From assembly GCF_013415325.1 (NCBI RefSeq), contig NZ_JACBYE010000018.1:1-64000 (forward strand): a DNA stretch of 64,000 nucleotides. The letters run 5' to 3'. This document shows positions 3,784-38,648 of the stretch, in pieces (within the stretch, counting starts at the first letter, position 1; every line of letters starts with the position of its first letter). The position numbers and the translations under genes were made by a program. A model generated the notes under the pieces. The model worked only from the letters and a program-made list of their open reading frames with translations, was not told the DNA's origin and made no database searches. The DNA is from Sanguibacter inulinus. GTDB lineage: Bacteria; Actinomycetota; Actinomycetes; Actinomycetales; Cellulomonadaceae.

Positions 3784-3802
3784 CCTCGTGCCCTGGAACG
3801 TA

Positions 3803-3886: not shown

Positions 3887-3942
3887 CGTCCGTGGATCCG
3901 AACAAGTTGTTCACCAGCAGGTTCGGCTCGCGCTGACACCCA

Positions 3943-3957: not shown

Positions 3958-4006
3958 TTTCTTGGCGAGCGCCGGGTCCACCGGCCCATCCTCAGGAGGA
4001 GATCTC

Positions 4007-5438: not shown

Positions 5439-5599
5439 CGGTCGGCGGTCGGCCAGCGGTCGGCATCGACCAGCGGGCGACTGGCGGTCAGCGGCCGGCT
5501 GGCGGTCAGCGGCCGGACAGCAGCGTGTGTCTCCTGCTCGTGCCAGGTCGACGCGACCAGCCTCTCGCAGGAGACCACGACCGGTCTCTCACCGGAGAC

Positions 5600-5641
5600 G
5601 ACGACGCCCGGTGGCCCCTCACGGGACCACCGGGCGTCGTC
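5600..5641. terminator. Bidirectional hairpin between MFS gene and eno
   Basis: Perfect 15-bp stem (5600-5614 with 5627-5641) with a 12-nt loop, placed between two convergent genes. No T tract follows, as is common in high-GC actinobacteria. The preceding 5439-5530 holds short degenerate GCGGTCGG/CTGGCGGTCAGC repeats and no gene. Confidence 0.75.
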
Positions 5642-5673
5642 AGCAGGTCAGCGACCTACCTGTGAGCTGATGC

Positions 5674-6972
<1,299 letters not shown>

Positions 6973-7089
6973 CTACGGGTTTACGACCCAACACTAGTCG
7001 GATCCGGGCGGTCCTGGGGCGGGATGTTCGACCTATGGCGCACACGATCACGCCCGAGCCACCCCCGCGTCACCGCTGCGCCACGTCGG

Positions 7090-7863: not shown

Positions 7864-7892
7864 GCTCCGATTCTGCCGCAGCCTCGACGCAC

Positions 7893-7934
7893 GACGGGCT
7901 CGTCGCCACCACGAGGGTGGACGACGAGCCCGTC
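7893..7934 (-). terminator. Terminator hairpin downstream of pntB
   Basis: 13-bp stem (7893-7905 with 7922-7934), one bulged A, then a further 5-bp stem and 5-nt loop. It lies between the pntB stop and the mazG start and is the second of two tandem hairpins. Confidence 0.75.
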
Positions 7935-7946
7935 AGCGGGGGCTGG

Positions 7947-7972
7947 GGACGGCCTGCGGTCGCAGGCCGTCC
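7947..7972 (-). terminator. First hairpin directly after pntB
   Basis: Perfect 12-bp inverted repeat (7947-7958 with 7961-7972) beginning 8 nt after the pntB stop. With the next hairpin it forms a tandem pair isolating pntAB from mazG-eno. Confidence 0.7.
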
Positions 7973-7979
7973 TCCTCGG

Positions 7980-9398: not shown

Positions 9399-9399
9399 G

Positions 9400-10959: not shown

Positions 10960-11062
10960 CGATTCTCCTCGTTCACTGGTCCGTGGACAGGCCGGTCGGC
11001 CGGAACCGGGTGCTGGGACTGCGTGCGCCCCGGCTGATGGAGCCTGGTCTACCACACACGGC

Positions 11063-11076
11063 GGTAAGCGTTTTCC
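11063..11076. promoter_or_regulatory. Possible LacI-family (cre-like) operator upstream of pntA
   Basis: On the minus strand GGAAAACGCTTACC matches 12 of 14 positions of the classical cre/LacI-type consensus TGAAARCGYTTNCA, with the central CG. It lies in the 327-bp gap between mfd and pntA (10960-11286), which otherwise contains the mfd terminator and no gene. The regulator is unknown; a LacI-family protein is encoded at 20495-21574, but its own intergenic palindromes differ. Confidence 0.4.
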
Positions 11077-11236
11077 AAGCGGCAGTCGACACTCCGTCAC
11101 CGGTCTGGTCTGGAGGTGGTGGGGAGGCGTCGTGCGCCGACCCACCGTCCATGGTGACGCACGACTGACCGCGGACGCAGGGACCTAAGCCCTTGCTGAC
11201 CTGCGTCGCCGGCCGGTCGCGTCGTCGCTGCGGGTA

Positions 11237-11278
11237 CTGGGCACCCGGCCTGCCGTGGGCTCCCGGCCGGCTGCCCAG
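11237..11278 (-). terminator. Terminator hairpin downstream of mfd
   Basis: Stem of CTGGGCA (11237-11243) with TGCCCAG (11272-11278) continued by CCGGCC/GGCCGG with single-base bulges, starting 9 nt beyond the mfd stop. Confidence 0.6.
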
Positions 11279-11286
11279 CGCGCCCG

Positions 11287-14925
<3,639 letters not shown>

Positions 14926-15017
14926 ATGTCCTTCACCAGTGCCGACGATCGGCCGGCCAGACGCCGGTCGTGCGCCCGCGCTGCGCCCGGCACAGCTGGT
15001 CGGGGCAACGCGAACAG

Positions 15018-15041
15018 GCCCGAATCATGAATGATCCGGGC
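15018..15041 (-). terminator. Hairpin between the 15.1-kb gene and mfd
   Basis: 11-bp stem with one A/C mismatch and a 2-nt loop (15018-15028 with 15031-15041). Its position 85 nt after the upstream minus-strand gene fits a terminator; no T tract follows. Confidence 0.5.
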
Positions 15042-15125
15042 TACGTGGTTCTAGCGTACGACGCACCACCGACATCGCGCGGGGAGGCCCCCGCCAGGAC
15101 CGAGGAGGCCCCACGGGCACCAGGG

Positions 15126-15833
15126 TCAGCGCTGGTCGTCGGGGATCGGGATCGGCTGCGGGCCGGGCCGCGGCGTCCGGTCCGGCGGGGTGAGAGGGCC
15201 GGGCTCACCACCGGGGCCTGTGGGCACCGGGAGCGGGAGCGGGTCGACCGTCGGTCCCGGGGCTGGTGCGACCGGGGTGCTGGTCGGCGGTGGCTGCTGC
15301 TGGAGCAACCACTCCTCGTGCGAGTCAGCGACGATCCCGGCAGCATGCTGCAGGCTCGCCGTCGTCGCGCGGAGCCTGGTCGTCGCCGTCTGCACGTCGC
15401 TGAGCCTCGTGCGGTCCACGTCGGCGTCGAGGGCGCTCTGCGCCACCGCGAGCGCGTCGACCAGCCCAGTGCGCGACGCGGGGTCGGCGACCTTGCCGTC
15501 CGTCGCCCTGAGGAGCTCGTCGGCGGAGAGGACAGCCGTCTCGAGGGTCGAGCGCGAGGAGTCGAGGTCGGCGAGCGCCGCGTCGAGGTCGGCGTCGGGG
15601 GTCGACGTGGCACTCGGCTCAGCCGTCGGTGAGCTGGTGCCTGGGTCGTCGGTCACCGTGCCTCCTGGGACAGGCTCGCGCTGGCTGGCGAGCAGCACGA
15701 GCACGACGACCGCTCCGACCACGAGCAGCACGGACAGGAGCGCGAGGAGGATCTGCCTCTGGCGGCGGGCGGACAGCGCGTCCGGTGCGCCGTCGTCGGG
15801 CAGATGGTCGAGCGGCGAGCGGTCCTGCGGCAT
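15126..15833 (-). CDS. Single-pass membrane protein with extracytoplasmic helical domain, unknown function
   Basis: 235 residues from the second ATG, chosen because AGGGG lies 5 nt before it; an in-frame ATG at 15854 would add seven residues. One strongly hydrophobic helix (about residues 26-50) follows a basic RRQRQ stop-transfer motif, so the C-terminal part is probably outside. A Ser/Thr/Pro linker leads into an Asp/Leu/Ala-rich stretch (about 75-165) likely to form helices or a coiled coil, and a Pro-rich tail ends IPIPDDQR. No recognised domain or catalytic motif. It lies upstream of mfd on the same strand. Confidence 0.7.
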   Translation of the reverse strand: MPQDRSPLDHLPDDGAPDALSARRQRQILLALLSVLLVVGAVVVLVLLASQREPVPGGTVTDDPGTSSPTAEPSATSTPDADLDAALADLDSSRSTLETAVLSADELLRATDGKVADPASRTGLVDALAVAQSALDADVDRTRLSDVQTATTRLRATTASLQHAAGIVADSHEEWLLQQQPPPTSTPVAPAPGPTVDPLPLPVPTGPGGEPGPLTPPDRTPRPGPQPIPIPDDQR

Positions 15834-15937
15834 CACGGCCCCTGTCAGTGGCATCGGTGCGGCTCGTTCGAGGGGTGAAATCTACAGGCTCGGAGAGCCT
15901 GCTGTCAGACCACTCGTCCGCGGCTCTGGTGAACCTG

Positions 15938-16756
15938 TCACGCCCGGGCTGTGGACGGAGGCGATGCCGGCGCCGGCCCCGCCGTCGTCGCCAGCTCTGC
16001 CTCCGCGAGCGCAGCCCGCACGGGTGCGAGCCCGTCCTCGTCGTACCTGTCGCCGACGTCGTCGAGCATGTACCGGCACGCCCAGGCCGTGGCCCGGGCT
16101 GGCACCAGGTCGAGCTGCGCGCTCTCGGTCCACCCCTCGAGGAAGGCTCGCCAGGTCGGGTCCCCGAGCAGCGGGACGGCGTGGGGGTCGAGGTGGAAGA
16201 TGCTCGCCGTACGCGCCCGGTCGAGGGCGGCAGGCCCGGCCGCGGCGTTGGTCCAGTCGATGACGGCGGTGACCTCGTCGTCGTCGCCGAGCACGATGTT
16301 GAGAGGGTGCAGGTCGAGGTGCAGCAGCACGTCCTCCTCGCTCCTGGCGTGGTCGTCGTCCCCTCGAACCCTGGCGAGCCCCGCAGGCGGCCGGACGGTG
16401 CTGATCGCGACCTGGGCTCTGCCGCATGCTGCCCCACGCCTGCGCGCCCTGTCGAGGCTCATCCCGTCGAGCGCAGCCGCGTCGGTCCCCGGCGCACGGC
16501 GGATCAGTGCCGCTGCACCGTCGCCCGAGGGGCTGTCGTACCGGTCCACGAGCTCGGGCACCGGGACCACGGCTGCTGCGGCCGAGGACGCGAGGTGCTC
16601 GTGGTCGAGCACCTGCGGCCAGCTGAGACGCAGCACGACGTCGTCGACTCCGAGCACCCGCCCGGTCGCCCCTCCGAGCGGCACGAGCCGCTCCGGGTCC
16701 AGCCCGAAGCTGCGCGACGCGTCGCGCACCAGCCGGGCGACGTCCTGCTCGTCCAT
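15938..16756 (-). CDS. Aminoglycoside phosphotransferase (APH)-fold kinase
   Basis: 272 residues with the APH/choline-kinase catalytic loop HLDLHPLNIVL and the downstream metal-binding segment VIDWTNAAAGPAALD. These supply the catalytic Asp, the Asn and the DFG-equivalent Asp. The N-terminal lobe is short and has only a weak nucleotide-binding strand pattern (GGATGRVLGVDDVVLRL). The family phosphorylates small molecules, but substrate cannot be told from sequence and resistance should not be assumed. It is divergent from the lipoprotein at 16932. Confidence 0.8.
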   Translation of the reverse strand: MDEQDVARLVRDASRSFGLDPERLVPLGGATGRVLGVDDVVLRLSWPQVLDHEHLASSAAAAVVPVPELVDRYDSPSGDGAAALIRRAPGTDAAALDGMSLDRARRRGAACGRAQVAISTVRPPAGLARVRGDDDHARSEEDVLLHLDLHPLNIVLGDDDEVTAVIDWTNAAAGPAALDRARTASIFHLDPHAVPLLGDPTWRAFLEGWTESAQLDLVPARATAWACRYMLDDVGDRYDEDGLAPVRAALAEAELATTAGPAPASPPSTARA

Positions 16757-16931
16757 GACCTTCCCCTCCCTGCGACAGACCGGTGTCGCGCAGACCGATC
16801 ATCACCCATGGTGACTTCTCCCCCAGCCTCCCACGAGAATTCAGCCCCTTGACCTGCGCTCACGCGGCTACGATCGGCGTGCCTGCAGCCCTCCGGTCGC
16901 AGAGCCCCTCACGAGAGAAGGCACTCCCACC

Positions 16932-17465
16932 ATGTCGCCGTCCCTGTCCCGCCCCTCCGGCCTCCCCCTCCGCGGCCTGTCCGTCGTGGCACTGTCGGCC
17001 GTCGCTGCCCTCGCCCTGTCGAGCTGCTCCGTCTTCGACAGCTCGGGTTCCTCGAACGAGCCCCCGCGCGACGAGACGAACGGCCAGATCACCGAGACGG
17101 CCGACGCCGACGTCTTCTCGATCAAGGTCGGCGACTGCCTCGACTACGTGGCCCTCGGGTCGGGCGAGATCAACTCGGTCCCCGTGGTCCCGTGCGGCGA
17201 GCCGCACGACGGCGAGGTCTACGCGGAGATGTCGCTGCCCGACGGCGACTACCCCGGCGACGACGCCATCAGCCAGCAGGCAGACACCTACTGCTACGAC
17301 CAGTTCGCGACCTTCGTCGGCATCCCCTGGGACGACTCGTCGCTCGACTACTCCCCGCTGACCCCGACGGCTGACAGCTGGGAAGGCTTCGACGACCGTC
17401 TGATCCAGTGCGTCGTCGCCTCGCAGGACGACGTCACCGAGTCCTTCAAGGGCTCGCAGCTCTGA
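16932..17465 (+). CDS. Lipoprotein with septum-formation-family domain
   Basis: 177 residues with a classic lipoprotein signal: basic start, hydrophobic core, lipobox LALSSC with the acylated Cys near residue 32. The mature part is acidic and has the pattern VGDCLDY...VPCGEPHDGEVYAEM...CYDQFATFVG with four cysteines probably forming disulfides. This resembles the actinobacterial septum-formation (Septum_form, DUF4190-linked) secreted domain. The role is unproven. It ends just before a very strong terminator and is convergent with murB. Confidence 0.75.
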   Translation: MSPSLSRPSGLPLRGLSVVALSAVAALALSSCSVFDSSGSSNEPPRDETNGQITETADADVFSIKVGDCLDYVALGSGEINSVPVVPCGEPHDGEVYAEMSLPDGDYPGDDAISQQADTYCYDQFATFVGIPWDDSSLDYSPLTPTADSWEGFDDRLIQCVVASQDDVTESFKGSQL

Positions 17466-17477
17466 GCTGCTCGGACG

Positions 17478-17525
17478 ACAGGCCACGGGCCGCCCTACCT
17501 CTAGGTAGGGCGGCCCGTGGCCTGT
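17478..17525. terminator. Strong bidirectional terminator
   Basis: A perfect 22-bp inverted repeat (17478-17499 with 17504-17525) with a 4-nt TCTA loop, exactly between the convergent lipoprotein gene and murB. It is the longest perfect stem I saw in the window. Confidence 0.9.
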
Positions 17526-17571
17526 GAGCAGGCTGTCGTCTGTGAGCAGACCTCAGAGGGTCAGCTGGGCC

Positions 17572-18759
17572 TCAGAGCGACACCCCGACGAGCACGGGCT
17601 CAGGCACGAGCTCGATACCGAAGGCGGCGTCGACACCGCCCCGGACCTCTCGCGCGAGCCGCACGATGTCGTTCGCGGTCGCGTGGCCACGGTTGGTGAG
17701 GGCGAGCGTGTGCCGGGTCGAGACCCTCGCGGCGCTGTCCGGCCCGTCGACGCCGTATCCCTTGCCGAAGCCGGCACGCTCGATGAGCCACGCGGCCGAG
17801 ACCTTGACGACGCTCGGGTCGATGGTGCCGAGGGCAGGGCCTGTCGTCGTGGTCGGGGTCGCCGTCCGCACGGGGAACACCGGGACGCCCTCGGGCAGGT
17901 CCGCGACGAGGTCCGCGGGGATGATCGGGTTGGTGAAGAAGGAGCCGGCGCTCCACCGGTCGTAGTCCGGCTGGTCACCTGTGTCGAGCAGCATCCCCTT
18001 GCTGCCGCGCAGCTCGAGGACGGCGTCGCGCACAGCGCTCGTCTCGGCGCGGGCGCCCTCCTCGACCCCGAGCCGGCGGGCGAGCTCGGGGTACACGATG
18101 GGCGTCGAGAGCGTCCCGATGCGCAGCTGGAAGCTCACGTCGAGGACGACGTAGCGCGGGCTCGGGTACCACGGCGCCCGCGGGTCGACGTCGCCAGGCT
18201 CGCCTGCGCGCGAGTGCGGCATCTGCGTCGAGCGCTTGAGCATCGACGTGCGGTAGCCGAAGTCCAGGTCGACGAGGGACAGTGTGCGCACACGACCGCG
18301 CCCGCGGTCCCAGACCCTGACGTTGGCGACAGAGCCGGAGATCTCCTGGCCGTAGGCGCCGATGTTCTGGACGGGGGCTGCGCCGACGGTCCCCGGGATG
18401 CCCGAGAGAGACTCGACGCCGACCCAGCCACGGTCGATGACCTCGGCGACTAGCTCGTCCATGCTGTGCCCTGCCGGCGCCGTGAGGTTCGCACCACCGC
18501 AGGAGTCGGCGCTCTCGACCCGCAGCCCGGAGCGCTGGTCCTGGATCACGACCCCGGAGAAGCCCTCGTCGGCGACGAGCAGGTTGGAGCCGCCGCCGAG
18601 GATCAGCACGGGCTCACCCGCGTCGTCGGCCGCCCGGACGGCGTCGATCAGCTCGGCCTCGGTGGTCGTGCGGACCAGGGTGTCCATGTCCCCGCCGACG
18701 CGCAGCGTCGTGAGGTCGGCGAAGGTGGGCTCGGCCAGTGTTCTCAGGTCCTCGGTCAC
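17572..18759 (-). CDS. murB: UDP-N-acetylmuramate dehydrogenase MurB
   Basis: 395 residues, type I MurB. FAD-binding N-terminal part with TTLRVGG, ILGGGSNLLVADEGF and GVESLSGIPGTVGAAPVQNIGAYGQEI; catalytic region with GYRTSMLK and the proton-donor serine in SAGSFFTNP; C-terminal ALTNRGHATANDI. It reduces UDP-GlcNAc-enolpyruvate to UDP-MurNAc with NADPH for peptidoglycan synthesis. The start is GTG at 18759 with no clear Shine-Dalgarno. In many actinobacteria murB sits next to hadAB-rpmG; here a LacI/MFS pair and a repeat array separate them. Confidence 0.95.
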   Translation of the reverse strand: MTEDLRTLAEPTFADLTTLRVGGDMDTLVRTTTEAELIDAVRAADDAGEPVLILGGGSNLLVADEGFSGVVIQDQRSGLRVESADSCGGANLTAPAGHSMDELVAEVIDRGWVGVESLSGIPGTVGAAPVQNIGAYGQEISGSVANVRVWDRGRGRVRTLSLVDLDFGYRTSMLKRSTQMPHSRAGEPGDVDPRAPWYPSPRYVVLDVSFQLRIGTLSTPIVYPELARRLGVEEGARAETSAVRDAVLELRGSKGMLLDTGDQPDYDRWSAGSFFTNPIIPADLVADLPEGVPVFPVRTATPTTTTGPALGTIDPSVVKVSAAWLIERAGFGKGYGVDGPDSAARVSTRHTLALTNRGHATANDIVRLAREVRGGVDAAFGIELVPEPVLVGVSL

Positions 18760-18860
18760 CCCGCCAGTTTAAGACTCCGAGCCCTGTCTGCGCTGCGCTG
18801 GGCAGGTGAGGATCTAGCGCAGGCGAGCTGACAGGAGCCAGACCGGCGGGGCAGCACGCC

Positions 18861-20435
18861 TCAGCCGCGCGAGCGGGCCTCGGCCCGGGCGACGTCGTCG
18901 TCCTCGTCCATGAGCACCTCGACGGCGAAGGCGTCGGCGACCATGTTCTCGGCCACCGCCATCTCCATGCCGAGGGTCGTGGTCTCGGTCCGACGCTCGT
19001 CGTCGGTCGGCGCCGAACCGTCGACCCGCGAGCTGTCACCCTGGGCACCCGTGGTGTCCTCGGGGACCAGGCGGGCGACGTGCTTGGACAGCAGGATCGA
19101 GAGCACCACGAACACGGTGATGCCGGTGAGCGTCTGACGCGCACCGATCGACTCGGCCAGCAGGCCGACCACCGGGGGCGCGACGAGCGAGGACATCGAG
19201 GCGAAGGCCGAGACCACCGAGACACGAGCCGCGGCCTTGAGCGGGTCGTCCGAGGCGGCCGCGATGCCGACAGGCACAGCCAGAGCCGCGCCGAAGCCCC
19301 AGAGGACGACGCCGACGGCGGAGACCGCGAGGGTCGGGCCGAAGCCGAAGAGCAGGAGGCCGACCATCGAGACCACGCCCGAGGCCCGCAGCACGAGCAC
19401 GCGCCCGTAGCGGTCGATGAGCCGCGTGCCGAAGATCCGCACGACGGTCATGGCGGTGACGAAGGCACCGAAGACCAGCGCACCGGTGCTCTCCGAGGCA
19501 GCGAAGCCGTCGACGACGCTGATCGCCAGCCAGTTGTTGGCCGAGCCCTCGGACAGCGATGCGGCGAGGATGACCACGCCGATGAAGAGGGTGCGCGGCT
19601 CGCGCCAGGCACCCAGGGCGGACGCCAGGCTGGCACGCCGGGCGCGGACCACGGCACGGGCACCTGTCGTCCCTGGAGCAGCCTGGACCACACCGCCGCG
19701 GATCTCGGCCTTCTGCACCCGACGCACCCGGGCTGTCGACGCACGCTCCCAGCGGACCTCGCCCGCGAGGTGCGTGTCGTGGATGATGTAGCGCACCGAG
19801 ACCAGGCGCCAGACGAGCGTCAGCGTCGTCATCACGAGGAACTGCACCACGACGGGGACCTCGAGAGCCGAGGACCCGGCGCCGATGAGCGACCCGAGGA
19901 CGGCGCCGATCGAGAAGGCTGCGTGGAACTGGGGCACGATCGCCCGACCCATCCGCCGTTCGACGCTCGCCGTCTCGACGTTCTGCACCACGTTGAGCAG
20001 CGCGATGCTCATACCGTTGAGGAAGATGCCCACGACCAGCACCCAGGTGTGCCCGACCGCGGGGCCGATGCCCTCGAGGGCCAGCGCGAGGAAGCTCGAC
20101 GAGGCCGCGAAGACGTAGACCGGCGTCCCGCCGAAGCGCAGCACGATCGATCCCGCGAAGGTCACCATGACGAGGGAGCCGACGGCTCCGGCCAGCATCA
20201 CGGCGCCGAGGTCGGCTGTGGTCAGCCCGAGCATCTCCCGGATGGTCGGCAGGCGCGCCAACCAGCTCGAGGTGTTGACCCCGAGGATGAGGAAGAGCCC
20301 GAGGAGGGCGATGCGCGCGTGGTGGAGGGCGCGGTCGGGTGAGGTCGAGGCCTTGATCGTTCTGTTCCTTCGCTGTCGAATCGATTCGAACGCCTGCCAC
20401 GGTACTGATCGAATCGTTCCGAGGCTTGCTGACAA
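18861..20435 (-). CDS. MFS transporter (YbjJ-like)
   Basis: A 12-helix major facilitator whose first helix region reads LGVNTSSWLARLPTIREMLGL, similar to the YbjJ/fucose-permease branch, with an acidic cytoplasmic C-terminal tail of about 60 residues. Coordinates give the longest frame, which begins at TTG 20435 and would place two operator-like palindromes inside the gene. No ATG, GTG or TTG occurs in frame between there and the first helix. The only position with a good Shine-Dalgarno (AAGGAA, 7 nt) is an ATC at 20357, giving about 498 residues. Substrate unknown; divergent from, and probably regulated by, the LacI protein. Confidence 0.82.
   Translation of the reverse strand: MSASLGTIRSVPWQAFESIRQRRNRTIKASTSPDRALHHARIALLGLFLILGVNTSSWLARLPTIREMLGLTTADLGAVMLAGAVGSLVMVTFAGSIVLRFGGTPVYVFAASSSFLALALEGIGPAVGHTWVLVVGIFLNGMSIALLNVVQNVETASVERRMGRAIVPQFHAAFSIGAVLGSLIGAGSSALEVPVVVQFLVMTTLTLVWRLVSVRYIIHDTHLAGEVRWERASTARVRRVQKAEIRGGVVQAAPGTTGARAVVRARRASLASALGAWREPRTLFIGVVILAASLSEGSANNWLAISVVDGFAASESTGALVFGAFVTAMTVVRIFGTRLIDRYGRVLVLRASGVVSMVGLLLFGFGPTLAVSAVGVVLWGFGAALAVPVGIAAASDDPLKAAARVSVVSAFASMSSLVAPPVVGLLAESIGARQTLTGITVFVVLSILLSKHVARLVPEDTTGAQGDSSRVDGSAPTDDERRTETTTLGMEMAVAENMVADAFAVEVLMDEDDDVARAEARSRG
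20376..20389. promoter_or_regulatory. LacI-type palindrome in the MFS/lacI intergenic region
   Basis: Perfect 14-bp palindrome TCGAATCGATTCGA. A second, imperfect copy TCGAATCGTTCCGA lies at 20409-20422. LacI-family operators usually have a central CG, and a divergent lacI gene is adjacent, so these are the best candidates for its binding sites. Confidence 0.65.
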
Positions 20436-29604: not shown

Positions 29605-30978
29605 TCAGCGCCCGAGGGTGATGTCCAGCATCTCCTCGCGCGAGACGACCTTGATGCGCTCGCGCCCGACGGCCTCGCCGAGGGCACGCTCGTGCGCGTC
29701 GAGGAGCTCCCAGCCCGACCACTGCACGACCTCGACCCCGCGGTCCGCGAGGAACCCGGTGATCGCGTCGGGCGAGGGCTGGGGCGCTGAGGCGAAGCCG
29801 TCCTGGACGCTGTCCTCGACGAGGTGACGGATGGTCTCCGAGGCGTCGGACTTGGTGTGGCCGATGAGACCGACGGGGCCGCGCTTGATCCAGCCTGTGC
29901 AGTACACGCCCTCGAGGTGCTCGCCGTCGAGGTCGAGGACCCGGCCCTCGGCGTTGGGCACGACACCCTTGACGTCGTCGAAGGGCAGCTCGGCGAGCGG
30001 AGAGCCGAAGTAGCCGACCGCGCGGTACACGGCCTGGACGGGCCAGTCGTGCGTCTCGCCGGTGCGGCTGACGGTGCCGTCGCCGTTGAGGCGGGTGCGC
30101 TCGGTGCGCAGCGCGTCGACCTTGCCGTCGCCGTCGGTGTCGAGGATCTCGGCCGGAGCGTGCAGGAAGTGCAGGTGCAGGCGGCGCGAGGCGGAGAAGG
30201 TCGACGGGTCCTTGAGGGTCCAGTCGGTGAGGGTCTTGACGACCTGCTTCGTCTGGTTGGACGAGCCGATCGCGGCCATCGAGCCCTCGTCGAACTCGAA
30301 GTCCTCGGGGTAGACGATCACGTCGACGTCGGGGACGTGCCCGAGCTCGCGGAGCTCGAGCGGGGAGAACTTCGCCTGCGCGGGGCCGCGGCGGGCGAAG
30401 ACGTGCACGTCGGTGACGGGCGAGGCCTTGAGACCCTCGTAGACGTTCGCGGGGATCTCGGTGACGAGCAGGTCGTCCGCGTGCTTGGCCAAGACCCGGG
30501 CGACGTCGAGGGCGACGTTGCCGGCCCCGATGACCGCGACCTGCTGCGCCTCGAGCGGCCAGGTGGTCGGGACGTGCGGGTGGCCGTCGTACCAGGACAC
30601 GAAGTCGGCCGCGCCGTAGGAGCCGTCGAGCTCGGTCCCCGGGATGTCCAGGGGGGCGTCGGTGATCGCACCCGTCGAGAAGATCACCGCGTCGTAGAAC
30701 TCGCGGAGCTCGTCGAGCTTGATGTCGATGCCGTAGTCGACGTTCGACAGCAGGCGGATGTCCCCGCGCTCGAGCACCCTGTGCAGGGCGGTGATGATCT
30801 GCTTGATCCGCGGGTGGTCGGGCGCGACGCCGTAGCGCACGAGACCGAAGGGCGCGGGCAGCCGCTCGAAGAGGTCGATGGAGACGTCGAGCTCCGTCTT
30901 GGAGAGGATGTCGGCGGCGTAGATGCCGGCCGGTCCGGCCCCGACGATCGCGACGCGCAGCTGACGGTCAGTGCTCAC
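29605..30978 (-). CDS. fprA: Ferredoxin/flavodoxin-NADP+ reductase, adrenodoxin-reductase type
   Basis: 457 residues from GTG 30978. FAD-binding VAIVGAGPAGIYAADIL at the N terminus, FERLPAPFGLVRYGVAPDH, NADP-binding VIGAGNVALDVARVL near residue 165, and C-terminal GWIKRGPVGLIGHTKSDA: the FprA/adrenodoxin reductase family of mycobacteria. It transfers electrons between NADPH and ferredoxin. A DtxR/IdeR-like box overlaps a -10-like TAGACT about 65 bp upstream, suggesting iron control. Confidence 0.94.
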   Translation of the reverse strand: MSTDRQLRVAIVGAGPAGIYAADILSKTELDVSIDLFERLPAPFGLVRYGVAPDHPRIKQIITALHRVLERGDIRLLSNVDYGIDIKLDELREFYDAVIFSTGAITDAPLDIPGTELDGSYGAADFVSWYDGHPHVPTTWPLEAQQVAVIGAGNVALDVARVLAKHADDLLVTEIPANVYEGLKASPVTDVHVFARRGPAQAKFSPLELRELGHVPDVDVIVYPEDFEFDEGSMAAIGSSNQTKQVVKTLTDWTLKDPSTFSASRRLHLHFLHAPAEILDTDGDGKVDALRTERTRLNGDGTVSRTGETHDWPVQAVYRAVGYFGSPLAELPFDDVKGVVPNAEGRVLDLDGEHLEGVYCTGWIKRGPVGLIGHTKSDASETIRHLVEDSVQDGFASAPQPSPDAITGFLADRGVEVVQWSGWELLDAHERALGEAVGRERIKVVSREEMLDITLGR

Positions 30979-31104: not shown

Positions 31105-31584
31105 TCAGCCCGCGAGGCGCAGGCTGTCCTGGATCTCACGGACCTGGCCGAAGAACGCCTCGGTCTGCGGGCCTGTGCACGTGCCCGTGACCTGCACGAC
31201 GTCGAAGACCGGGCCGTTCTCGAGCACGCACATGCGCAGGGCCTGGACGAGCGTGCCGCCCTTGCCGTCGGAGAAGTACCCCTCGACCCGCATGCCGGGC
31301 GCCCCGAGGATCTCCACCGAGTCCTCACGCAGGGTCTGGGTGAACCTGGGCAGGGCCTTGAGGCTCTTGTTGACGGCGGCACGCGAGTCGGCGACGGTGT
31401 GGCCGACCCCGAACCTCTGTACCGTGACCAGCACGTTCGGCCGGAACTGCCCCGAGGGGACCTCCGCGGCGAGGGCCAGCGGCAGCCCGACACCGGCGAG
31501 GGCGACCCAGCCGTCGGGCTGGTCGATCTCGAGCGCCGGGTACGCCGGGAAGGCCTCGGACGGGAAGGCGAGCGTGCCGGGCAT
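31105..31584 (-). CDS. Small PsbP/DcrB-like protein of the phosphosignalling operon
   Basis: 159 residues. The ATG (31584) overlaps the previous stop in TGATG. No signal peptide. It has alternating strands and helices with PDGWVALA, PNVLVTVQRF, EDSVEILGAPGMRVEGYFSDG and a final helix TEAFFGQVREIQDSLRL. This layout recalls the PsbP/MOG1/DcrB alpha-beta fold found in LpqN-like actinobacterial proteins, but the match is by pattern only. Last gene of the five-gene kinase/phosphatase operon; function unknown. Confidence 0.65.
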   Translation of the reverse strand: MPGTLAFPSEAFPAYPALEIDQPDGWVALAGVGLPLALAAEVPSGQFRPNVLVTVQRFGVGHTVADSRAAVNKSLKALPRFTQTLREDSVEILGAPGMRVEGYFSDGKGGTLVQALRMCVLENGPVFDVVQVTGTCTGPQTEAFFGQVREIQDSLRLAG

Positions 31585-32279
31585 CAGTCTTCGGAGTCCA
31601 CGTCGAGCAGAGGGAGGTCGGCCGAGGTCACCAGGCGGGAGGTCACCGCGTACTCGACGAGCCGGGCACGACGGTTGGTCGCGAGCTGTTTGGGTCCACC
31701 GCGCAGACCCTTGACACCCATGCGGTCCAGCTTGTCGCACACGTTGTCGAGCTTGCGGTTGAACCGTGTGGTCGCCCAGCCCAGGCGCTTGGCGGCCTCT
31801 GCGGTCGACGGGATCTCGCTCAGACCGGCGCCGTCGCGCTTGAGCATGGGCTCGCAGAGCGCGACGATCAGCTGCTTCTGGCTCGTGGTGAAGGAGATCA
31901 CGCCGATGGTCGTCTCGCCGATGAGGGGGTCGTCCGTGAGGACCTCCTGGTAGGGCGAGCCCTCGAGGTGGGCCAGCAGCTCGTAGGTAGTCGGCCCTGC
32001 GGTGAAGACGATCGTGGTCGTCTTGAAGACGATGGGCAGCCTGTTGCCGGGCGAGAGCCACGACTGCACGCCGCCGCTCGCGTCGCAGATGGTCGCCGAG
32101 ATGAGCGACCCGACGTTCGAGAGCCACCAGATGCCGTCCACGTGCGTGATGCGCAAGAACCTGCGGTGCAGGTAGGGGTTGTCGTCGACGGAGAGGTCGG
32201 CCTCGCGCCCGATGTCGAAGGGCTCGTCGAGGGACGGCTTGAACCACTCGCCGCAGTAGTCGATCGCCAGCTCGGTCAT
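31584..32279 (-). CDS. FHA-winged-helix phospho-dependent regulator
   Basis: 231 residues from the ATG at 32279. The N-terminal half is an FHA domain: FDIGREADLSVDDNPYLHRRF has the phosphothreonine-binding Arg and the HRR in place of the usual SRRH, followed by IWWLSNVGS. From about residue 130 a helical region, ISFTTSQKQLIVALCEP...IPSTAEAAKRLGWATTRFNRKLDNVCDKL, looks like a winged helix with a recognition helix. This is FHA first and DNA-binding last, the reverse of EmbR. It should bind a phosphorylated partner, plausibly the neighbouring kinase, and act on DNA. Confidence 0.75.
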   Translation of the reverse strand: MTELAIDYCGEWFKPSLDEPFDIGREADLSVDDNPYLHRRFLRITHVDGIWWLSNVGSLISATICDASGGVQSWLSPGNRLPIVFKTTTIVFTAGPTTYELLAHLEGSPYQEVLTDDPLIGETTIGVISFTTSQKQLIVALCEPMLKRDGAGLSEIPSTAEAAKRLGWATTRFNRKLDNVCDKLDRMGVKGLRGGPKQLATNRRARLVEYAVTSRLVTSADLPLLDVDSED

Positions 32280-32388
32280 CGCAGAAGTCCACACTCTCTC
32301 TCGTGCCCCGTCAGGGCGTCGTGCTCGCCGCCGGGCTCGGTGCCGACGACGCGTGTGCTCGCCCGCTCGACTCTAGCGGGAAGCGCTG

Positions 32389-34101
32389 TCAGTCGAGGCA
32401 TGCCCGCGCCGGGGAGCCGGACAACCGGCCGTCCCGGACGATCGCGACCTCGAGGCAGGGGTTGGAGACCCCGAAGGAGTTGACGCTCGCGCTGAGCACG
32501 CTCGTCTGGCGGTACTCCTCGGTCGACGCCGAGCCGATCGTCGTCACCGGGCGGTAGGCGTAGGTGTCGGAGGACCCGGGCTCGGGGTTCTCCCACGAGA
32601 ACACCACCTGGCTCGAGCCCTCGCTGCCCGTCGCGGTCAGCTCGACCGGGGCGGGCACCGTCGAGGCCTCGAGCAGGTCGGGGCGGCTCATCCGCTCGAC
32701 GACCACCCCGCCCGCGACGAGGAGCGCGAGCACCGCGGCGACCGACGTGATCGCCGTCGGCGACCTCCAGCGCGAGGGTCGCCTCGGCGGCTGCTGCTGC
32801 ACGGGCGCGAGCGTGCCGATGCTCAGGCCGGCCGGCTGGCCAGGTCCGCCGGGCGAGCCCGCCTGGGCCTGCGCGACGGCCGGGTCGACCGGACCGACGA
32901 CCCCGTACCCCGTGGTCACGGGCTGCGCGGCGGGCACCGCGTCGGGGTAGGCGACGGCCGGCACGTAGGGCGAGCCGCCGACGCGCCCGTAGCTGCTGCC
33001 CGTGAAGGAGTCGCTGCGGTGGCCCGAGACGGAGTCGACCATGACGCCGTCGCCCGTCGTGCCGGGCTGCAGACCCGAGCGCCAGGAGTCCTCGGAGTGG
33101 CCCACCCCGTAGCCCGGGTGGAACCTGTCGCTCGCGAGCCGGATGCGGGTGCCGCCGTCGCCGGTCTCGTCCTGGCCGTCGGTCGGGTCCCTGTCACCGG
33201 ACAGGTGCGAGATGGTGGTGCTCGTCGAGTCGTCGATGATGTCGATCGACGTGGACGTGAGGTTCAGTCCCGACTGGACCCGCTGGAGGGCGCGCCCGAG
33301 GTCGAGCATCGAGGGGTACCGCATGTCGGGTGACTTGGCCATCGCCGCACCGAGCACCTGCTCGAGCTCGGCCGGGACGTCACCGCGGCCGATCGGCGGG
33401 AGCGGCTCGTGCGTGATGCGCTGGACGAGCGCTCGCTGGGTGTTGTTGCCCCCGGGGACCTCGAAGGGCGAGCGCCCTGCGAGCAGCGTGTAGATGGTCG
33501 CCCCGAGCGACCACACGTCGCTGCGCACACCGCTGCGAGGCTCGGCCGTGAGGTTCTCGGGCGGGGACCACGGGACCGACATGCCGTCGGCCCCGGCCTC
33601 GCTCTGCTCGATGGTCGCCGAGATCCCGAAGTCCGTGAGCGCCGGGTGCCCGTAGTCGGTCACCAAGATGTTCGCGGGCTTGATGTCGCGGTGCACGATC
33701 CCGTTGCGGTGCGCGGTCTCGACGGCCCCGGCGATCTGGATGCCCACGCGCAGGGTCTCCGCCACGCCGAGAGGCTCGCGCTTGTACCTCGCGGACATGG
33801 TCGAGCGGGAGCAGTACTCCATGGCGAGGAACAGCCGGCCGTCGTCGGTCACGTCGGTGTCGAAGATCGTGACGATCGAGGGGTGGCTCGACAAGATCGC
33901 CATCAGGTCGGCCTCGGCCGTGAAGGCCGCCCGGGTCGCCTCGTCGGCGCGCTGCGGGAGCAGGACCTTGATCGCGACCTTCCGACGGGGGCGCAGCTCC
34001 TGGTAGAGGAAGACGTCGGCGAACCCGCCCGAGCCGATCACGCTCAGGTACTCGTAGCCGGCGATCTCCGGCGGCGCCGAGGGCGGCCTGCGTGCTCTCA
34101 T
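32389..34101 (-). CDS. Transmembrane Ser/Thr protein kinase with extracytoplasmic Fn3-like domain
   Basis: 570 residues. Complete Hanks-type kinase: P-loop GSGGFADV (23-30), Lys45, catalytic HRDIKPAN with Asp139, DFG at 157-159, and PWSPPE in the activation segment. A Gly/Gln/Pro-rich juxtamembrane linker (about 290-440), one helix (about 450-470), and an external domain with VPAPVELTATGSEGSSQVVFSW, a fibronectin-III-like strand pattern and two cysteines (CLEV, ARACLD). It lacks PASTA repeats, so it is not PknB. The ATG overlaps the FHA-gene stop as ATGA, coupling reader and writer. Confidence 0.93.
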   Translation of the reverse strand: MRARRPPSAPPEIAGYEYLSVIGSGGFADVFLYQELRPRRKVAIKVLLPQRADEATRAAFTAEADLMAILSSHPSIVTIFDTDVTDDGRLFLAMEYCSRSTMSARYKREPLGVAETLRVGIQIAGAVETAHRNGIVHRDIKPANILVTDYGHPALTDFGISATIEQSEAGADGMSVPWSPPENLTAEPRSGVRSDVWSLGATIYTLLAGRSPFEVPGGNNTQRALVQRITHEPLPPIGRGDVPAELEQVLGAAMAKSPDMRYPSMLDLGRALQRVQSGLNLTSTSIDIIDDSTSTTISHLSGDRDPTDGQDETGDGGTRIRLASDRFHPGYGVGHSEDSWRSGLQPGTTGDGVMVDSVSGHRSDSFTGSSYGRVGGSPYVPAVAYPDAVPAAQPVTTGYGVVGPVDPAVAQAQAGSPGGPGQPAGLSIGTLAPVQQQPPRRPSRWRSPTAITSVAAVLALLVAGGVVVERMSRPDLLEASTVPAPVELTATGSEGSSQVVFSWENPEPGSSDTYAYRPVTTIGSASTEEYRQTSVLSASVNSFGVSNPCLEVAIVRDGRLSGSPARACLD

Positions 34102-36296
34102 GCAAGACCCTCGAAGGTCAGTCGGACCCCGTCGCCGAGGTCGGCGACGTCACCGCTCATGACGAGGGTCGGCTCCTGCGGGTGCAGGCGGCGCGGCGGC
34201 TGGCCCGGGCGCAGCAGGGTGGTCCCGTTGACGGTCGTGAGGTCGACGAGGAGGACGTTCCAGCCCTCGAGGCGCACCTCGAGGTGCGAGCGGGAGATGT
34301 CCTGGCTCGGGCTCGGCACAGTGACCAGGCGGGGAGCCTGGGCCTGGGCCGTGACCACGTGGGCCTGCGGGTACCGGCCGAGCACAAGAGGCTGCTCGAG
34401 CTCGACGACGTCGCCCGTCGAGAGCACGACCCGGCCCAGCGACGGCCTGGGCACCACCTCGGCCTGCGGGTTGAGACCGCCGCCGCACACGGCGCAGGTC
34501 GAGCGGACGGGGGTGTTGGCGTGGCCGTAGGCACAGCTGCGGGCCAGGATGGTCGGCACCTGGGAGGGAGCCGCAGCCGGGGCGACCTCGTCTGCGGCAA
34601 GCGGGGTACCGGGCAGCTGGACGGTCCACTGCGGGCCTGAGCCCTGCGGGTACAGCGGCGCTGCCGGTGCCGGCGGTGCTGCCGGGCTCGGCGCAGACCA
34701 GCCGGCCTGCTCGGGCGCCCGGTCCGAGGTGGGCACGGGGCCGGTCCCTGCGGGGAGCGCCTCCCCCGGGGGCATCTGCGGAGCCGCCTGGTACACCGGG
34801 TACGGCGCGTGGCCTGCGGGTGCCGGCTGGTCCGGGTGCTGGTCCGCGACCGACGGCGCAGGCCACGACGCGGCGGCGGGCAGCGGAGCGGCCGGCGCCG
34901 GCTCCGGCGGGGGCGGCGGGACCGGGGGCAGCCCTGTGCTCGGAGCGGGCACTGAGGGCGTCACCGCGCTCCCGCCCGCGCTCTCGTCGCGCCCGGCCGC
35001 GTCGTGAGCGGCCTCGTCGGGAGCAGCCTTCTTGAACCGTGCCTCGTCGAAGCCTCCGGTCTCGGTCTCGGCCGAACCGGTCTCGTCGACCTGGGCTGCA
35101 CCGACCGCGCCGTCTCCGCGCTCGCCCTCGTCGAGCCCGGGTTCGACGGGCTCGGCGTGGTCGGGGCCGGTCTCGGCGACTGCTGCGGCGCGCGCAGCGA
35201 GCACGCCGCGCACTCCTTCGAGGGAGAACACGGTGTCTTCGAGGTCGTCGTCCGACTCGGCCTCGTCGGTCGAGACAGCCGCGCCTGCTGAGACGGCCTC
35301 GTCGTCGGTCTGCGCGCCCGTGGCCACCAGGGCGGGTGCCGCAGAGTCCTGGACGTCGTCGGCCTGCGGTGCAGCCTCGTGCGCGGGGGTCCCCTCGACC
35401 TGCTGGATCTCGTCGGCGAGGCCTTCCGGGGGCGCGTCCTCGGCCGCGGGCTCGTCGGTCACGGGGTCGCCGGTCACGGGGTCGTCACCGGTCACGGGGT
35501 CGTCACCGGCCGGGTCGTCGCCCGCGAGCTCGTCGGTCGGCGCCTCGGGGAACTCCCCGAGGGTGCGGGCGAAGTCCGGCTCAGCGGGGTGGACGGGGAC
35601 CATCGCCGGGTCGAGGCCGGAGACCTGCTCCTCGCGCTCGGCGTCGGCAGCCCGTGCGTCCTCGCGCAGCTCGCCACCCTCGCGCACCTCGTCGTCCGCG
35701 CCGCTGTCCCCGACGGCGGCGACGGCTGCGACAGCCGCGAGCCCGTCTTCGTCGATCGTGTCGTCGGCGGTCCCGACAGACGCGACGTCCGTCGCCGACG
35801 CCCCCGCTGTCGCACCGGCCTCGTGCGGGCGCTGCCAGCTCACCGAGCGGGCCGTGACGACGCCCGTGGTGAGGGCGAGGGTCAGCGCCGCCTCGAGACC
35901 GGTCTCTCCGACGGCGAGCTCGTAGCGGTCGACGTCGGTGAAGCGCTTGTCGGCCCACGTGGTCATGCCGAAGGCCTCGATGGTCTCGCTGCCGACCTCA
36001 CCGGCCAGGTGGACCGAGACCCGGCCACGGGCCACGACGTGCAGGACCCCGGTCTCCTCGCCCTCAGGACCGGACTCGTGGACGACCACGCCGAAGTCCG
36101 GGAGCTCGCGCAGCGACGGGTCCAGGACTGTCGTGAGGCTGTCGAGCACGTCGGCCATGCCGTCAGGGCGCCCGAGGGTCTCGAGCGCGGACCAGATGGC
36201 CGAGACCGCTGCCGGCTCGACGGCGTCGTCGAGCAGGACGACCACGCCGGGCCTGACGAGGGCGAAGGCCGTTCCGGGCGCGTAGCTGATCGACAT
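34098..36296 (-). CDS. Zinc-ribbon FHA-domain protein with long acidic linker
   Basis: 732 residues from the ATG at 36296. An N-terminal domain of about 170 residues (FALVRPGVVVLLDDAV...LHVVARGRVSVHL) is not recognised. A very acidic, Ala/Pro-rich disordered region follows, with a DDPVTG tandem repeat near 35460-35520. Near residue 590 there is a zinc ribbon (CAYGHANTPVRSTCAVCGG), then a C-terminal FHA domain (LGRYPQAH, DISRSHLEV, TTVNGT). A likely substrate and scaffold of the kinase downstream; the unfolded middle offers many phosphorylation sites. It overlaps the kinase by 4 nt. Confidence 0.85.
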   Translation of the reverse strand: MSISYAPGTAFALVRPGVVVLLDDAVEPAAVSAIWSALETLGRPDGMADVLDSLTTVLDPSLRELPDFGVVVHESGPEGEETGVLHVVARGRVSVHLAGEVGSETIEAFGMTTWADKRFTDVDRYELAVGETGLEAALTLALTTGVVTARSVSWQRPHEAGATAGASATDVASVGTADDTIDEDGLAAVAAVAAVGDSGADDEVREGGELREDARAADAEREEQVSGLDPAMVPVHPAEPDFARTLGEFPEAPTDELAGDDPAGDDPVTGDDPVTGDPVTDEPAAEDAPPEGLADEIQQVEGTPAHEAAPQADDVQDSAAPALVATGAQTDDEAVSAGAAVSTDEAESDDDLEDTVFSLEGVRGVLAARAAAVAETGPDHAEPVEPGLDEGERGDGAVGAAQVDETGSAETETGGFDEARFKKAAPDEAAHDAAGRDESAGGSAVTPSVPAPSTGLPPVPPPPPEPAPAAPLPAAASWPAPSVADQHPDQPAPAGHAPYPVYQAAPQMPPGEALPAGTGPVPTSDRAPEQAGWSAPSPAAPPAPAAPLYPQGSGPQWTVQLPGTPLAADEVAPAAAPSQVPTILARSCAYGHANTPVRSTCAVCGGGLNPQAEVVPRPSLGRVVLSTGDVVELEQPLVLGRYPQAHVVTAQAQAPRLVTVPSPSQDISRSHLEVRLEGWNVLLVDLTTVNGTTLLRPGQPPRRLHPQEPTLVMSGDVADLGDGVRLTFEGLA

Positions 36297-36393
36297 CTCT
36301 TGTTCATCCTCACACCGGGGTCGGCAGCGCCGCGTGCTCGCGCTGCCGTGGACTTGGTTCTGCCTGGACGGTACTGCGTGGTCGCCCGCTCTG

Positions 36394-37194
36394 CTACGCG
36401 GAGACGGACCGTCCCGTCCAGCTTCCATGCGGGGGCGGCGCGGGGACCTGGTTTGCGGGGGTCGGGGCGACGTCCACCACGACCACCGTGACGTTGTCCC
36501 GGCCACCGGCGAGCAGGGCCGCGTTGACGAGCTGGTCGGCGGCGAGCTGGGGGTGCGGCTGCTGGCGGAGCACCTCGGAGATCTGGGCGACCGAGACGTC
36601 CTCGGTGAGTCCGTCGGAGCAGATGAGCAGTCGCTCCCCGGGCACGATCGGCAGGCTCCAGCAGTCGGGCTCGGGCTCGACGGTCCCGCCGAGCGCCCGG
36701 GTGATCACGTGCCTGCGGGCGAAGGTCCGCGCCTCTTCGGGCGAGACCTCGCCGGCGGCGACGAGCTCCTGGACGAGGGAGTGGTCGACGGTGATCTGCT
36801 GGAGCTCGGAGTTCAGGAAGCGGTAGGTGCGGGAGTCTCCGACGTTCGCGACGAGCCAGGTGGGCACCCCGTCGCGCTGGACGACCACGGCCCCGGTCAT
36901 CGTGGTGCCGGCGTGCCGTCCGGGCTGGGTCGCGATCTGGGTGACTGCCCGGTGCGCCTCGCGGATCGTGGCGTGCAGCTCGTCGAGGGTCACGTTGTCG
37001 GACTCTGCGAGGGCGCAGAGGACCTCGACGGCCGCGGCACTCGCCCGGGCGCCGCCCTCGTGACCACCCATGCCGTCGGCGACGAAGTAGACCCCGCGCT
37101 CGGCGTGGAAGGCGTCTTCGTTGGCGGCCCGGCGCCGGCCAGGGTGCGTGGTCGCACCCCATCGCAGGGCGCTGACGGCGTGCCGCTGATCCAC
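36394..37194 (-). CDS. PP2C-family Ser/Thr protein phosphatase
   Basis: 266 residues from GTG 37194 with AGGTGACGG upstream. PPM motifs: RRRAANEDAF, metal-binding DGMGGHEGG (40-48), GTTMTGAVVV, VANVGDSRTYRF, DHSLVQELV, LICSDGLTE and the final GGRDNVTVVVVD. All metal-ligand Asp residues are present. First gene of the operon PP2C - FHA - kinase - FHA/wHTH - PsbP-like, so it probably reverses the kinase in the same circuit. A PASTA kinase/cell-division cluster is not adjacent. Confidence 0.93.
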   Translation of the reverse strand: MDQRHAVSALRWGATTHPGRRRAANEDAFHAERGVYFVADGMGGHEGGARASAAAVEVLCALAESDNVTLDELHATIREAHRAVTQIATQPGRHAGTTMTGAVVVQRDGVPTWLVANVGDSRTYRFLNSELQQITVDHSLVQELVAAGEVSPEEARTFARRHVITRALGGTVEPEPDCWSLPIVPGERLLICSDGLTEDVSVAQISEVLRQQPHPQLAADQLVNAALLAGGRDNVTVVVVDVAPTPANQVPAPPPHGSWTGRSVSA

Positions 37195-37517
37195 TGCCCG
37201 TCACCTGCCTGTCGGTCTGTCGGTCTGTCGTGCACCGACGTCTCGCGGTCCGTGCTGGGCCGCGTCTGTCGGCGTCCTGGGGGCGCCGCTCCGCCCGTTC
37301 GGGCAGGACTGACGCTAGTCGCCCGTCCGAGGTGCTGCGATGGGGACTACTCCCCCGCAGTCACGGGCTTCTCCGGCGTGCGCGGACTGACGTGTCGTGC
37401 GAGTCAGAGTCACCGTCGCCGAGCAGGACGCGAGGGGTCGCGTCGAGCGTCTCGACGTCCGCCCGGCGCACCCGGGGCGACGAGCCGTCGCCCCGTGCTG
37501 CCCAGCCTGTCGGGGGG
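37195..37517. other. Gene-free stretch between the phosphatase and polyprenyl synthase genes
   Basis: 323 bp. It holds a short CTGTCGGT direct repeat (about 37210-37225) near the PP2C start, a -10-like TAGCGT on the minus strand (37317-37312) and no convincing ORF. It probably holds the promoter of the phosphosignalling operon. Confidence 0.45.
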
Positions 37518-38531
37518 TCAGGCTGTCCGGTCGACCAGGGACTCCGCGAAGGCCACGAGGGCGTCCTTCACAGGACCGTCCGGGAGGGGGACGAGCTCGG
37601 CGACCGCGTCCTGCGCCCAGGCGACAGCCTGCGCGCGGGTCTCCTCGACGACGGGGTGAGCACGCAGGGCCGCGACAGCCCCGGCGAGCGCCTCGTCGGA
37701 GCTGAGGTCGGAGTCGAGGAGGGCGAGGATCGCGAGGTCGTCGGGCGACGGCTGGGAGCTCGCGGCGACGTGGCTGCGCAGCAGGAGGACGGGCATGGTC
37801 GGGACGCCCTCGCGCAGGTCGGTCCCCGGGGTCTTGCCGGTGAGCGCACCGTCGGAGGTGAGGTCGATGACGTCGTCGGCCAGCTGGAAGGCGACGCCGA
37901 CCTTCTCGCCGAAGTTCGCGACGATCTCGACGATCTCCGGGCGGCACCCTGCGTACCTGGCGCCGAAGCGCGCGGAGGTCGCGATGAGCGAGGCGGTCTT
38001 GTCCGAGAGCACCTGGAGGTAGTGCTGGACGGCGTCTTCGTCGGGCCTGGGGCCGACGGTCTCGTGCAGCTGGCCGAGGCACAGCCTCTCGAAGGTCTCG
38101 GCCTGCCAGCGGACGGCCTCGGGGCCGAGCCCGGCGACGGTCACCGAGGCCCGCGCGAAGAGGAGGTCGCCGGTGAGGATCGCGACAGAGTTGCCCCACA
38201 CCTCGTGCGCGGCGGGTGCGCCGCGGCGCAGGGGCGCGGAGTCCATGACGTCGTCGTGGTACAGGGTCGCCAGGTGGGTGAGCTCGACGACGACGGCTGC
38301 GTCGATGACCTCGGGCCTGGCGGACTCGCCGAGCTCGGCGGTGAGCAGCGCGAGCAGGGGGCGCAGGCGCTTGCCCCCGGCGTCCACGAGGTGGCGGGAG
38401 GTCGTGTTCGCGAGCTCGTCCGCGTGCGTCACGGAGTCGCGCAGACGCTCCTCGACGTAGGCGAGCCGTGCGGCCAGCCTCTCGGCAAGGTCAGGGTCCG
38501 GCACAGGCAGCCCGATCGAAGCAGTAGTCAC
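37518..38531 (-). CDS. Polyprenyl diphosphate synthase (menaquinone side chain)
   Basis: 337 residues from GTG 38531. A -10-like TAGGTT lies 7 nt before it, the layout of a leaderless actinobacterial mRNA; the longer frame would start inside this promoter. Both aspartate-rich motifs are present: DDVMD after LTHLATLYH and DDVID after GVAFQLA, with GGKRLRP and the GDLLFARA helix. It condenses isopentenyl diphosphate with an allylic primer into a long all-trans chain. Adjacent to nuo and men genes, it most likely makes the menaquinone tail. Chain length cannot be read off reliably. Confidence 0.92.
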   Translation of the reverse strand: MTTASIGLPVPDPDLAERLAARLAYVEERLRDSVTHADELANTTSRHLVDAGGKRLRPLLALLTAELGESARPEVIDAAVVVELTHLATLYHDDVMDSAPLRRGAPAAHEVWGNSVAILTGDLLFARASVTVAGLGPEAVRWQAETFERLCLGQLHETVGPRPDEDAVQHYLQVLSDKTASLIATSARFGARYAGCRPEIVEIVANFGEKVGVAFQLADDVIDLTSDGALTGKTPGTDLREGVPTMPVLLLRSHVAASSQPSPDDLAILALLDSDLSSDEALAGAVAALRAHPVVEETRAQAVAWAQDAVAELVPLPDGPVKDALVAFAESLVDRTA

Positions 38532-38648
38532 GAGGTAGAACCTATCGTCTGTCGTGCCCCGAGCGTGCACTGACACCCGGCGGCAGAGGTCACACCGCTG
38601 CTGCGGCGACGATCTCGGTCACCCGAGGCCGCCACCACTGACCAGGCC

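Follow-up and report, generated by a model that had tools for sequence, protein, structure and literature searches.

A Ser/Thr phosphosignalling operon of Sanguibacter inulinus as the putative control part of a type VII secretion gene cluster

What is controlled by the five-gene Ser/Thr phosphosignalling operon of Sanguibacter inulinus? The operon is located in the window, the stretch of 64,000 nucleotides of contig NZ_JACBYE010000018.1 that was analysed as a whole. The initial annotation described five same-strand genes, several of them overlapping. All five genes are encoded on the minus strand in the order given there, and overlaps are found at two of the four junctions only, between the genes of the big FHA protein and the kinase (4 nt) and between the FHA-HTH and LpqN-like genes (1 nt); at the two remaining junctions the genes are spaced by about 97 and 109 nt. 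The first gene (36394–37194) encodes a PP2C-type Ser/Thr phosphatase similar to Stp1/PrpC (Pfam PP2C_2, 1e-12; NCBIfam Stp1, 8e-59), and the motifs DGMGG, SDGL and RDN can all be read from its translation. It is followed by the gene of the big FHA protein, a putative scaffold (34098–36296; Pfam FHA, 3.8e-5), and by the gene of a transmembrane Ser/Thr kinase, STK (32389–34101; Pkinase, 6e-41), with VAIK, HRDIKPAN and DFG all present in the translation. The Pfam and NCBIfam matches support the identities proposed for these three products. The external domain of the kinase, about 90 residues long, had been called Fn3-like, a designation for which the Pfam search returned no match. PASTA repeats had been described as absent, and the Stk1/PASTA model NF033483 indeed covers residues 16–302 only, which is the kinase half, far under its cut-off. 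The PASTA/PknB and T6SS classes were both rejected for the operon. A defence system was also rejected, since the PADLOC matches of the kinase (PD-T4-6, MAD6 etc.) span essentially the kinase domain only. The fourth gene (31584–32279) encodes a putative transcription factor, here called the FHA-HTH protein, recognized by the FHA fold of its model and by conservation. The last gene (31105–31584) encodes a protein without a signal peptide, for which no function had been offered. Its match to PF10738 (1.5e-4) scores 21.7 bits against a gathering cut-off of 22.4, a homologue from locus L082 reaches 40.8 bits (2e-10), and the product can marginally be assigned as LpqN/DcrB-like (PsbP/Mog1-like). Two minus-strand genes outside the system serve as synteny anchors: the polyprenyl synthetase gene upstream (37518–38576), identified by domain search, and the FAD/NAD(P)-dependent reductase-like gene downstream (29605–30978), identified by domain search and synteny.

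The genome collection contains at least 552 relatives of the FHA-HTH protein, and the neighbourhood counts refer to the best 80 loci, some of which are cut by contig ends. With Sanguibacter sequences the window protein shares 90–95% identity, in agreement with its assignment to this genus. The order PP2C, FHA, STK, FHA-HTH is found in 68 of these 80 loci, and the STK gene adjoins the FHA-HTH gene in 72 of 80. This bears out the view that eraser, scaffold, writer and putative DNA-binding protein form a conserved module. An EssC-type FtsK ATPase gene is located directly 3′ of the FHA-HTH gene on the same strand in 65/80 loci, and the cluster contains an EssC/TsxC ATPase gene in 72/80. EssC is followed by a WXG100 gene in 35/80 loci, and WXG100 by an LpqN-like gene in 24/80, so that the last gene of the operon has its counterparts beside WXG100 genes. 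Domain search of the relatives' ATPase revealed FtsK_SpoIIIE domains and an N-terminal FHA domain; its best model is EssC TIGR03928 (6e-160), yet the match lies under the cut-off of the model. The relatives' WXG100 genes give weak Pfam WXG100 scores (4e-4 to 2e-3). A lack of conservation outside this genome had been named beforehand as a refutation, and this refutation did not come true: the FHA-HTH gene was detected in 68 of 121 genomes of the family, with 62–99% identity for near-full-length matches. Judged by gene order, the gene set of the operon is far from a chance grouping.

The complete cluster is found in Cellulosimicrobium, where the nuo genes are followed by genes for polyprenyl synthetase, a giant Ig/cadherin protein, MoxR, DUF58, TgpA and an RDD/FHA protein, and then by PP2C, FHA, STK, FHA-HTH, EssC, WXG100, LpqN-like and reductase genes. 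These outer anchors are shared by the window, in which they enclose PP2C, FHA, STK, FHA-HTH and LpqN-like genes only. Other arrangements were also observed. In the Microbacterium loci L084, L085 and L104 the FHA-HTH gene lies downstream of FtsK-type ATPase and WXG100 genes, with no kinase or phosphatase gene within the 20-kb locus, and L084 additionally contains repeated effector-like gene arrays. Three records titled Sphaerisporangium cinnabarinum (L052), Sporosarcina beigongshangi (L078) and Acidobacteria MAG (L100) carry Micrococcales versions of the cluster and are probably mislabelled or contaminated genomes.

The EssC/TsxC ATPase gene is absent from the site in the examined Sanguibacter and Jonesia loci, and WXG100 is absent from the window site. 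No close EssC copy was found elsewhere in the genus, where only weaker EccC/FtsK relatives are present. Sanguibacter and Jonesia group together as one clade of the FHA-HTH tree (support 99/98), nested in a set (95/95) in which EssC is carried by each of the remaining 23 rows; the kinase tree agrees (97/97). Since this clade is nested among EssC carriers, the secretion core was lost there, and the trees indicate that the EssC-less state in Sanguibacter is a secondary loss and not a primary absence. The window locus itself, from which the ATPase and WXG100 genes are absent, is not a secretion system, but would function like the control unit of such a system. The kinase gene is also gone from the S. 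suarezii locus (L042), the kinase and phosphatase genes are gone from the Jonesia quinghaiensis locus (L045), and the FHA-HTH gene is intact in both. The FHA-HTH and LpqN-like genes are retained throughout this stepwise erosion of the module. Stepwise losses of this kind, of EssC and WXG100 and then of the kinase or of the kinase and PP2C, would also be left by an operon drifting without function since the secretion core was lost, and the N-terminal domain of the big FHA protein does diverge rapidly, with identities of about 40% between members of the genus. Such a decaying remnant is nevertheless very unlikely: the FHA-HTH gene is present as a single copy in each of the six genomes of the genus, 90–99% identical and without stops, the catalytic motifs of the enzymes are intact, and a palindrome upstream of the operon has been kept. 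Across the compared loci, FHA-HTH is the most persistent gene of the module.

The product of this gene had been described as an FHA-winged-helix protein. The AlphaFold2 model contains a confident FHA fold, which upholds the first part of the description; the helical C-terminus is of low confidence, and a winged helix is not established. Sequence searches against Pfam, NCBIfam and solved structures gave no family match (0 NCBIfam families at E<=1), and no HTH family match above cut-off was obtained for the close FHA-HTH family; a distant homologue gave a weak HTH_36 score (0.009). The protein looks like an unannotated regulator with putative DNA-binding activity. Among 89 distinct sequences, the Gly-Arg of the FHA pocket is invariant (GR in 89/89), the usual Ser is replaced by His in 89/89, and Asn-Gly is absent. 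As two canonical phosphothreonine contacts are missing, the protein probably reads phosphothreonine other than in the usual way, if at all, and the term phospho-reader transcription factor is probably inappropriate. A motif G-x-T-T-[IV]-G is located in the variable, low-pLDDT linker between the FHA domain and the helical C-terminus, with T124 conserved in all 89 distinct rows and T123 in 83 of them. In the window protein it reads GETTIG (residues 121–126; 31902–31919, minus strand), with Thr123 and Thr124 as candidate phosphoacceptors. With its noncanonical pocket and near-invariant linker motif, the FHA-HTH protein resembles a substrate rather than a reader. The motif is similar to the ETT sites of GarA/OdhI and represents the best candidate for a phosphosite.

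It is unlikely that the five genes alone constitute a self-contained Ser/Thr phosphosignalling pathway, unrelated to secretion, in which the FHA domain of the FHA-HTH protein reads phosphothreonine made by the kinase. The noncanonical pocket speaks against it, as do the adjacency of EssC in most related loci, the nested position of the loss in the tree and the persistence of FHA-HTH in the two relatives from which the kinase or phosphatase has disappeared. The module does stand alone in Sanguibacter, modules without EssC occur in other orders too, and distant FHA-HTH homologues of large-genome actinobacteria have only a kinase as their direct partner, all of which would fit such a pathway. The wording "self-contained" and "no secretion genes" of the initial annotation is misleading and finds no support: elsewhere the module is embedded in a type-VII-secretion/giant-surface-protein cluster, and the state in Sanguibacter was reached by secondary loss.

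The big FHA protein consists of an N-terminal domain (residues 1–160), an acidic, Pro-rich linker, a zinc ribbon and a canonical FHA domain. For its first 170 residues, previously left without assignment, a degenerate PP2C fold is predicted. The model of the N-terminal domain has a pLDDT of 90, and its top Foldseek matches are nearly all PP2C. The matches listed by VIA-align are PP2C-like folds with Z of 8.5–11.2; the best rows have Z of 10–11 over 133–147 residues, and RsbX is matched with Z of 11.2 over 142 residues (rmsd 3.5). Pfam and PDB sequence searches with the alignment of the domain gave no PP2C match; the fold comparison alone gave PP2C. No Asp is found in the invariant or 90% columns of 39 homologues. 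Because no aspartate is conserved, the domain is predicted to be a PP2C-fold pseudophosphatase lacking the conserved metal-binding aspartates. The pocket of the FHA domain is canonical, with GR, SRSH and NGT conserved in the alignment, and by these residues the big FHA protein is the canonical phosphothreonine reader of the module. In its linker the motif [DE]T[TMIV][IVMLA] is over-represented in relatives (63 against 9.5 in shuffled sequences); the strict motif is absent from the linker of the window protein.

Alignment of the region upstream of the PP2C gene from four Sanguibacter genomes revealed a single block of strong conservation, which is the palindrome (T)GGGGASTNSTCCCC(A). In the window it forms the candidate operator TGGGGAN4TCCCCA with one outer mismatch (37341–37356, unstranded), located between the polyprenyl synthetase and PP2C genes. 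When sites with at most one mismatch were collected from the 80 loci (1.57 Mb), 34 of 61 were found within 3–61 bases after the EssC stop codon, and WXG100 comes next after many of them. Exact TGGGGAN4TCCCCA is present in 64 of 68 FHA-HTH-positive and 9 of 53 FHA-HTH-negative genomes of the family (121 genomes; Fisher 2.5e-19), and in 11 of 16 versus 0 of 9 genomes of the same order outside the family (p=0.001), both p-values overstating the association because the genomes share ancestry and are not phylogenetically independent. The mean number of exact palindromes per genome is 2.9 with FHA-HTH and 0.17 without. Within one genus the palindrome is found in 6 of 6 genomes with the gene and in 0 of 3 without it; both this contrast and the second sample agree in direction with the family-wide association. 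Four FHA-HTH-positive genomes have no exact palindrome, and most Arthrobacter loci have none after EssC. The genome of S. inulinus contains three exact palindromes versus two for the control, which is weak taken alone. Four sites are present in Jonesia, with no kinase, phosphatase or EssC gene at its locus, and six in S. suarezii, with no kinase gene there. The retention of palindromes in these two genomes favours FHA-HTH as the binder, and we infer that it may bind the palindrome. The highest count seen, 12 exact sites, was observed in genome G351, which lies outside the family but within the same order.

The palindrome could alternatively be the site of another regulator, or an RNA hairpin or attenuator, that merely co-occurs with the cluster, and the FHA-HTH protein would then be a secretion assembly factor that does not bind DNA, like the FHA domains of EssC. 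The sequence can fold as a strong RNA hairpin, the element sits right after the preceding stop codon, and the lack of an above-cut-off HTH family match for the close FHA-HTH family agrees with this explanation. However, the stem bases are near-identical between genera and do not co-vary, a T-tract is absent behind them, palindromes precede scattered genes, and they are retained in genomes in which FHA-HTH is almost all that is left of the module. Together with the HTH_36 score of the distant homologue, this makes the alternative improbable.

A direct role of the FHA-HTH protein at the palindrome would imply a regulon, and scattered genes of WXG100 type are among those preceded by the sites. 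In Cellulosimicrobium a palindrome lies 81 bp before a WXG100 gene, and palindromes are also found before giant-protein genes. Others are located 97 and 105 bp before genes of proteins with N-terminal WXG100 domains, and one precedes a protein pair with T7SS signals. In the nearest relative, the Sanguibacter genome G003, two tandem palindromes lie about 60–100 bp before three WXG100-like genes, beside an RDD/FHA-EccC locus. In S. inulinus itself none is found beside the ESX locus; one exact palindrome lies 127 bp before a secreted subtilase gene, one precedes a lipoprotein gene, the apparent homologues of which in G003 and G004 carry sites, and the remaining ones show no evident theme. The lipoprotein family (...GDAVAG...DTVSLRHDYDSTPQEVNDYW...; L239, L283, L284) apparently has the palindrome upstream in three Sanguibacter genomes.

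We consider it fairly probable that the operon constitutes the regulatory core of a type-VII-secretion/giant-surface-protein cluster, in which an FHA-HTH protein set by kinase and phosphatase regulates a regulon via the palindrome. According to this proposal, the genes for the EssC-like ATPase, WXG100 and MoxR-DUF58-transglutaminase-giant-protein were lost from the window site, and the control operon stayed. The membrane kinase would sense an envelope cue and phosphorylate threonines of two linkers, that of the FHA-HTH protein (GxTTIG) and the acidic one of the big FHA protein. The PP2C enzyme would undo the phosphorylation and reset the system. The big FHA protein would bind the phosphorylated partner through its canonical FHA domain, with the pseudophosphatase domain as a scaffold docking the kinase, the phosphatase or a substrate. 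Phosphorylation followed by docking would change the binding of FHA-HTH at TGGGGAN4TCCCCA, through which the protein would regulate its own operon and dispersed WXG100, surface and lipoprotein genes. The LpqN/DcrB-like protein may conceivably be a substrate chaperone, by analogy with DcrB/EagR. More tentatively, and with somewhat less than even confidence, the FHA-HTH proteins may represent an undescribed family of phospho-switch transcription factors, widespread in Micrococcales, that runs a dispersed type-VII/surface regulon via the palindrome; in Sanguibacter and Jonesia the regulator and its operators would have outlived their own secretion ATPase and been recruited to other genes, among them an unrelated ESX locus of a close relative. 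Kinases, phosphatases and FHA proteins have already been noticed beside several type VII systems. For a path leading there from phosphorylation to gene expression, the module offers a candidate DNA-binding end in soil bacteria that can be cultivated, and its precise target site, its phosphosite and its pseudophosphatase scaffold are all predicted. The palindrome could also be used as a genome-wide sequence tag for candidate type VII substrates in Actinomycetota.

Several known systems resemble the module. In the threonine-phosphorylation pathway of T6SS (PpkA-Fha-PppA), a kinase, a PP2C phosphatase and an FHA protein control a secretion machine. This triad is Gram-negative and is not known to include a transcription factor, and the window operon lacks T6SS genes. 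The T6SS likeness is mentioned in the accessible text on T7SSd/T7SSe (Garrett, Higginson & Palmer 2024, PMC11217815), which also suggests phospho-control of these systems. Like T7SSd/T7SSe as described in that text, the relatives' cluster contains an EssC-like ATPase with an N-terminal FHA domain, WXG100, a membrane Ser/Thr kinase, a PPM phosphatase and a separate FHA protein, whereas the window copy lacks the ATPase and WXG100. The FHA-HTH regulator, the pseudophosphatase-FHA protein and the operator are absent from the accessible T7SSd/T7SSe account, and its main text contains no mention of Micrococc-, Arthrobacter or Cellulo-. We found no publication on the palindrome or on type VII secretion of Sanguibacter. 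EspM of the mycobacterial ESX-1 system, a DNA-binding regulator of the adjoining type VII system, combines an N-terminal FHA domain with a C-terminal helix-turn-helix (PMC7002343). The architecture of FHA-HTH is analogous, with no homology detectable by the NCBIfam EspM model NF052403, which was in the searched library and gave no match. By the candidate operator in the relatives' EssC-WXG100 gap and beside the WXG100-like operon of G003, the function of FHA-HTH may be EspM-like. In the PFNA operon of Bifidobacterium, the genes of a kinase, an Fn3 surface protein, an AAA ATPase, DUF58, a transglutaminase, a PrpC phosphatase and an FHA protein are clustered (PMC8430577). Its description contains no FHA-HTH gene, and the gene order differs from the window module; the giant-MoxR-DUF58-TgpA half is gone from the window site.

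The PFNA set of kinase, fn3, AAA, DUF58 and transglutaminase genes, not present at the window site, is met elsewhere in the genome of S. inulinus. Contig C11 (about 3740–20000) carries the PFNA-like order FHA-PP2C-FHA-STK-giant-MoxR-DUF58-TgpA without FHA-HTH. The giant protein is a 2052-aa Ig/cadherin/Fn3 protein, and each of the six genomes of the genus contains the conserved kinase of this locus. A recent origin of this kinase by duplication of the window kinase was rejected, as it belongs to another clade of the kinase tree. Contig C20 encodes a different, EccC-type type VII system. Two identical 102-aa ESAT6-like genes (8972–9280 and 15442–15750; locus L009) flank a gene set beside this EccC/EccD-type T7SS and represent a recent duplication.
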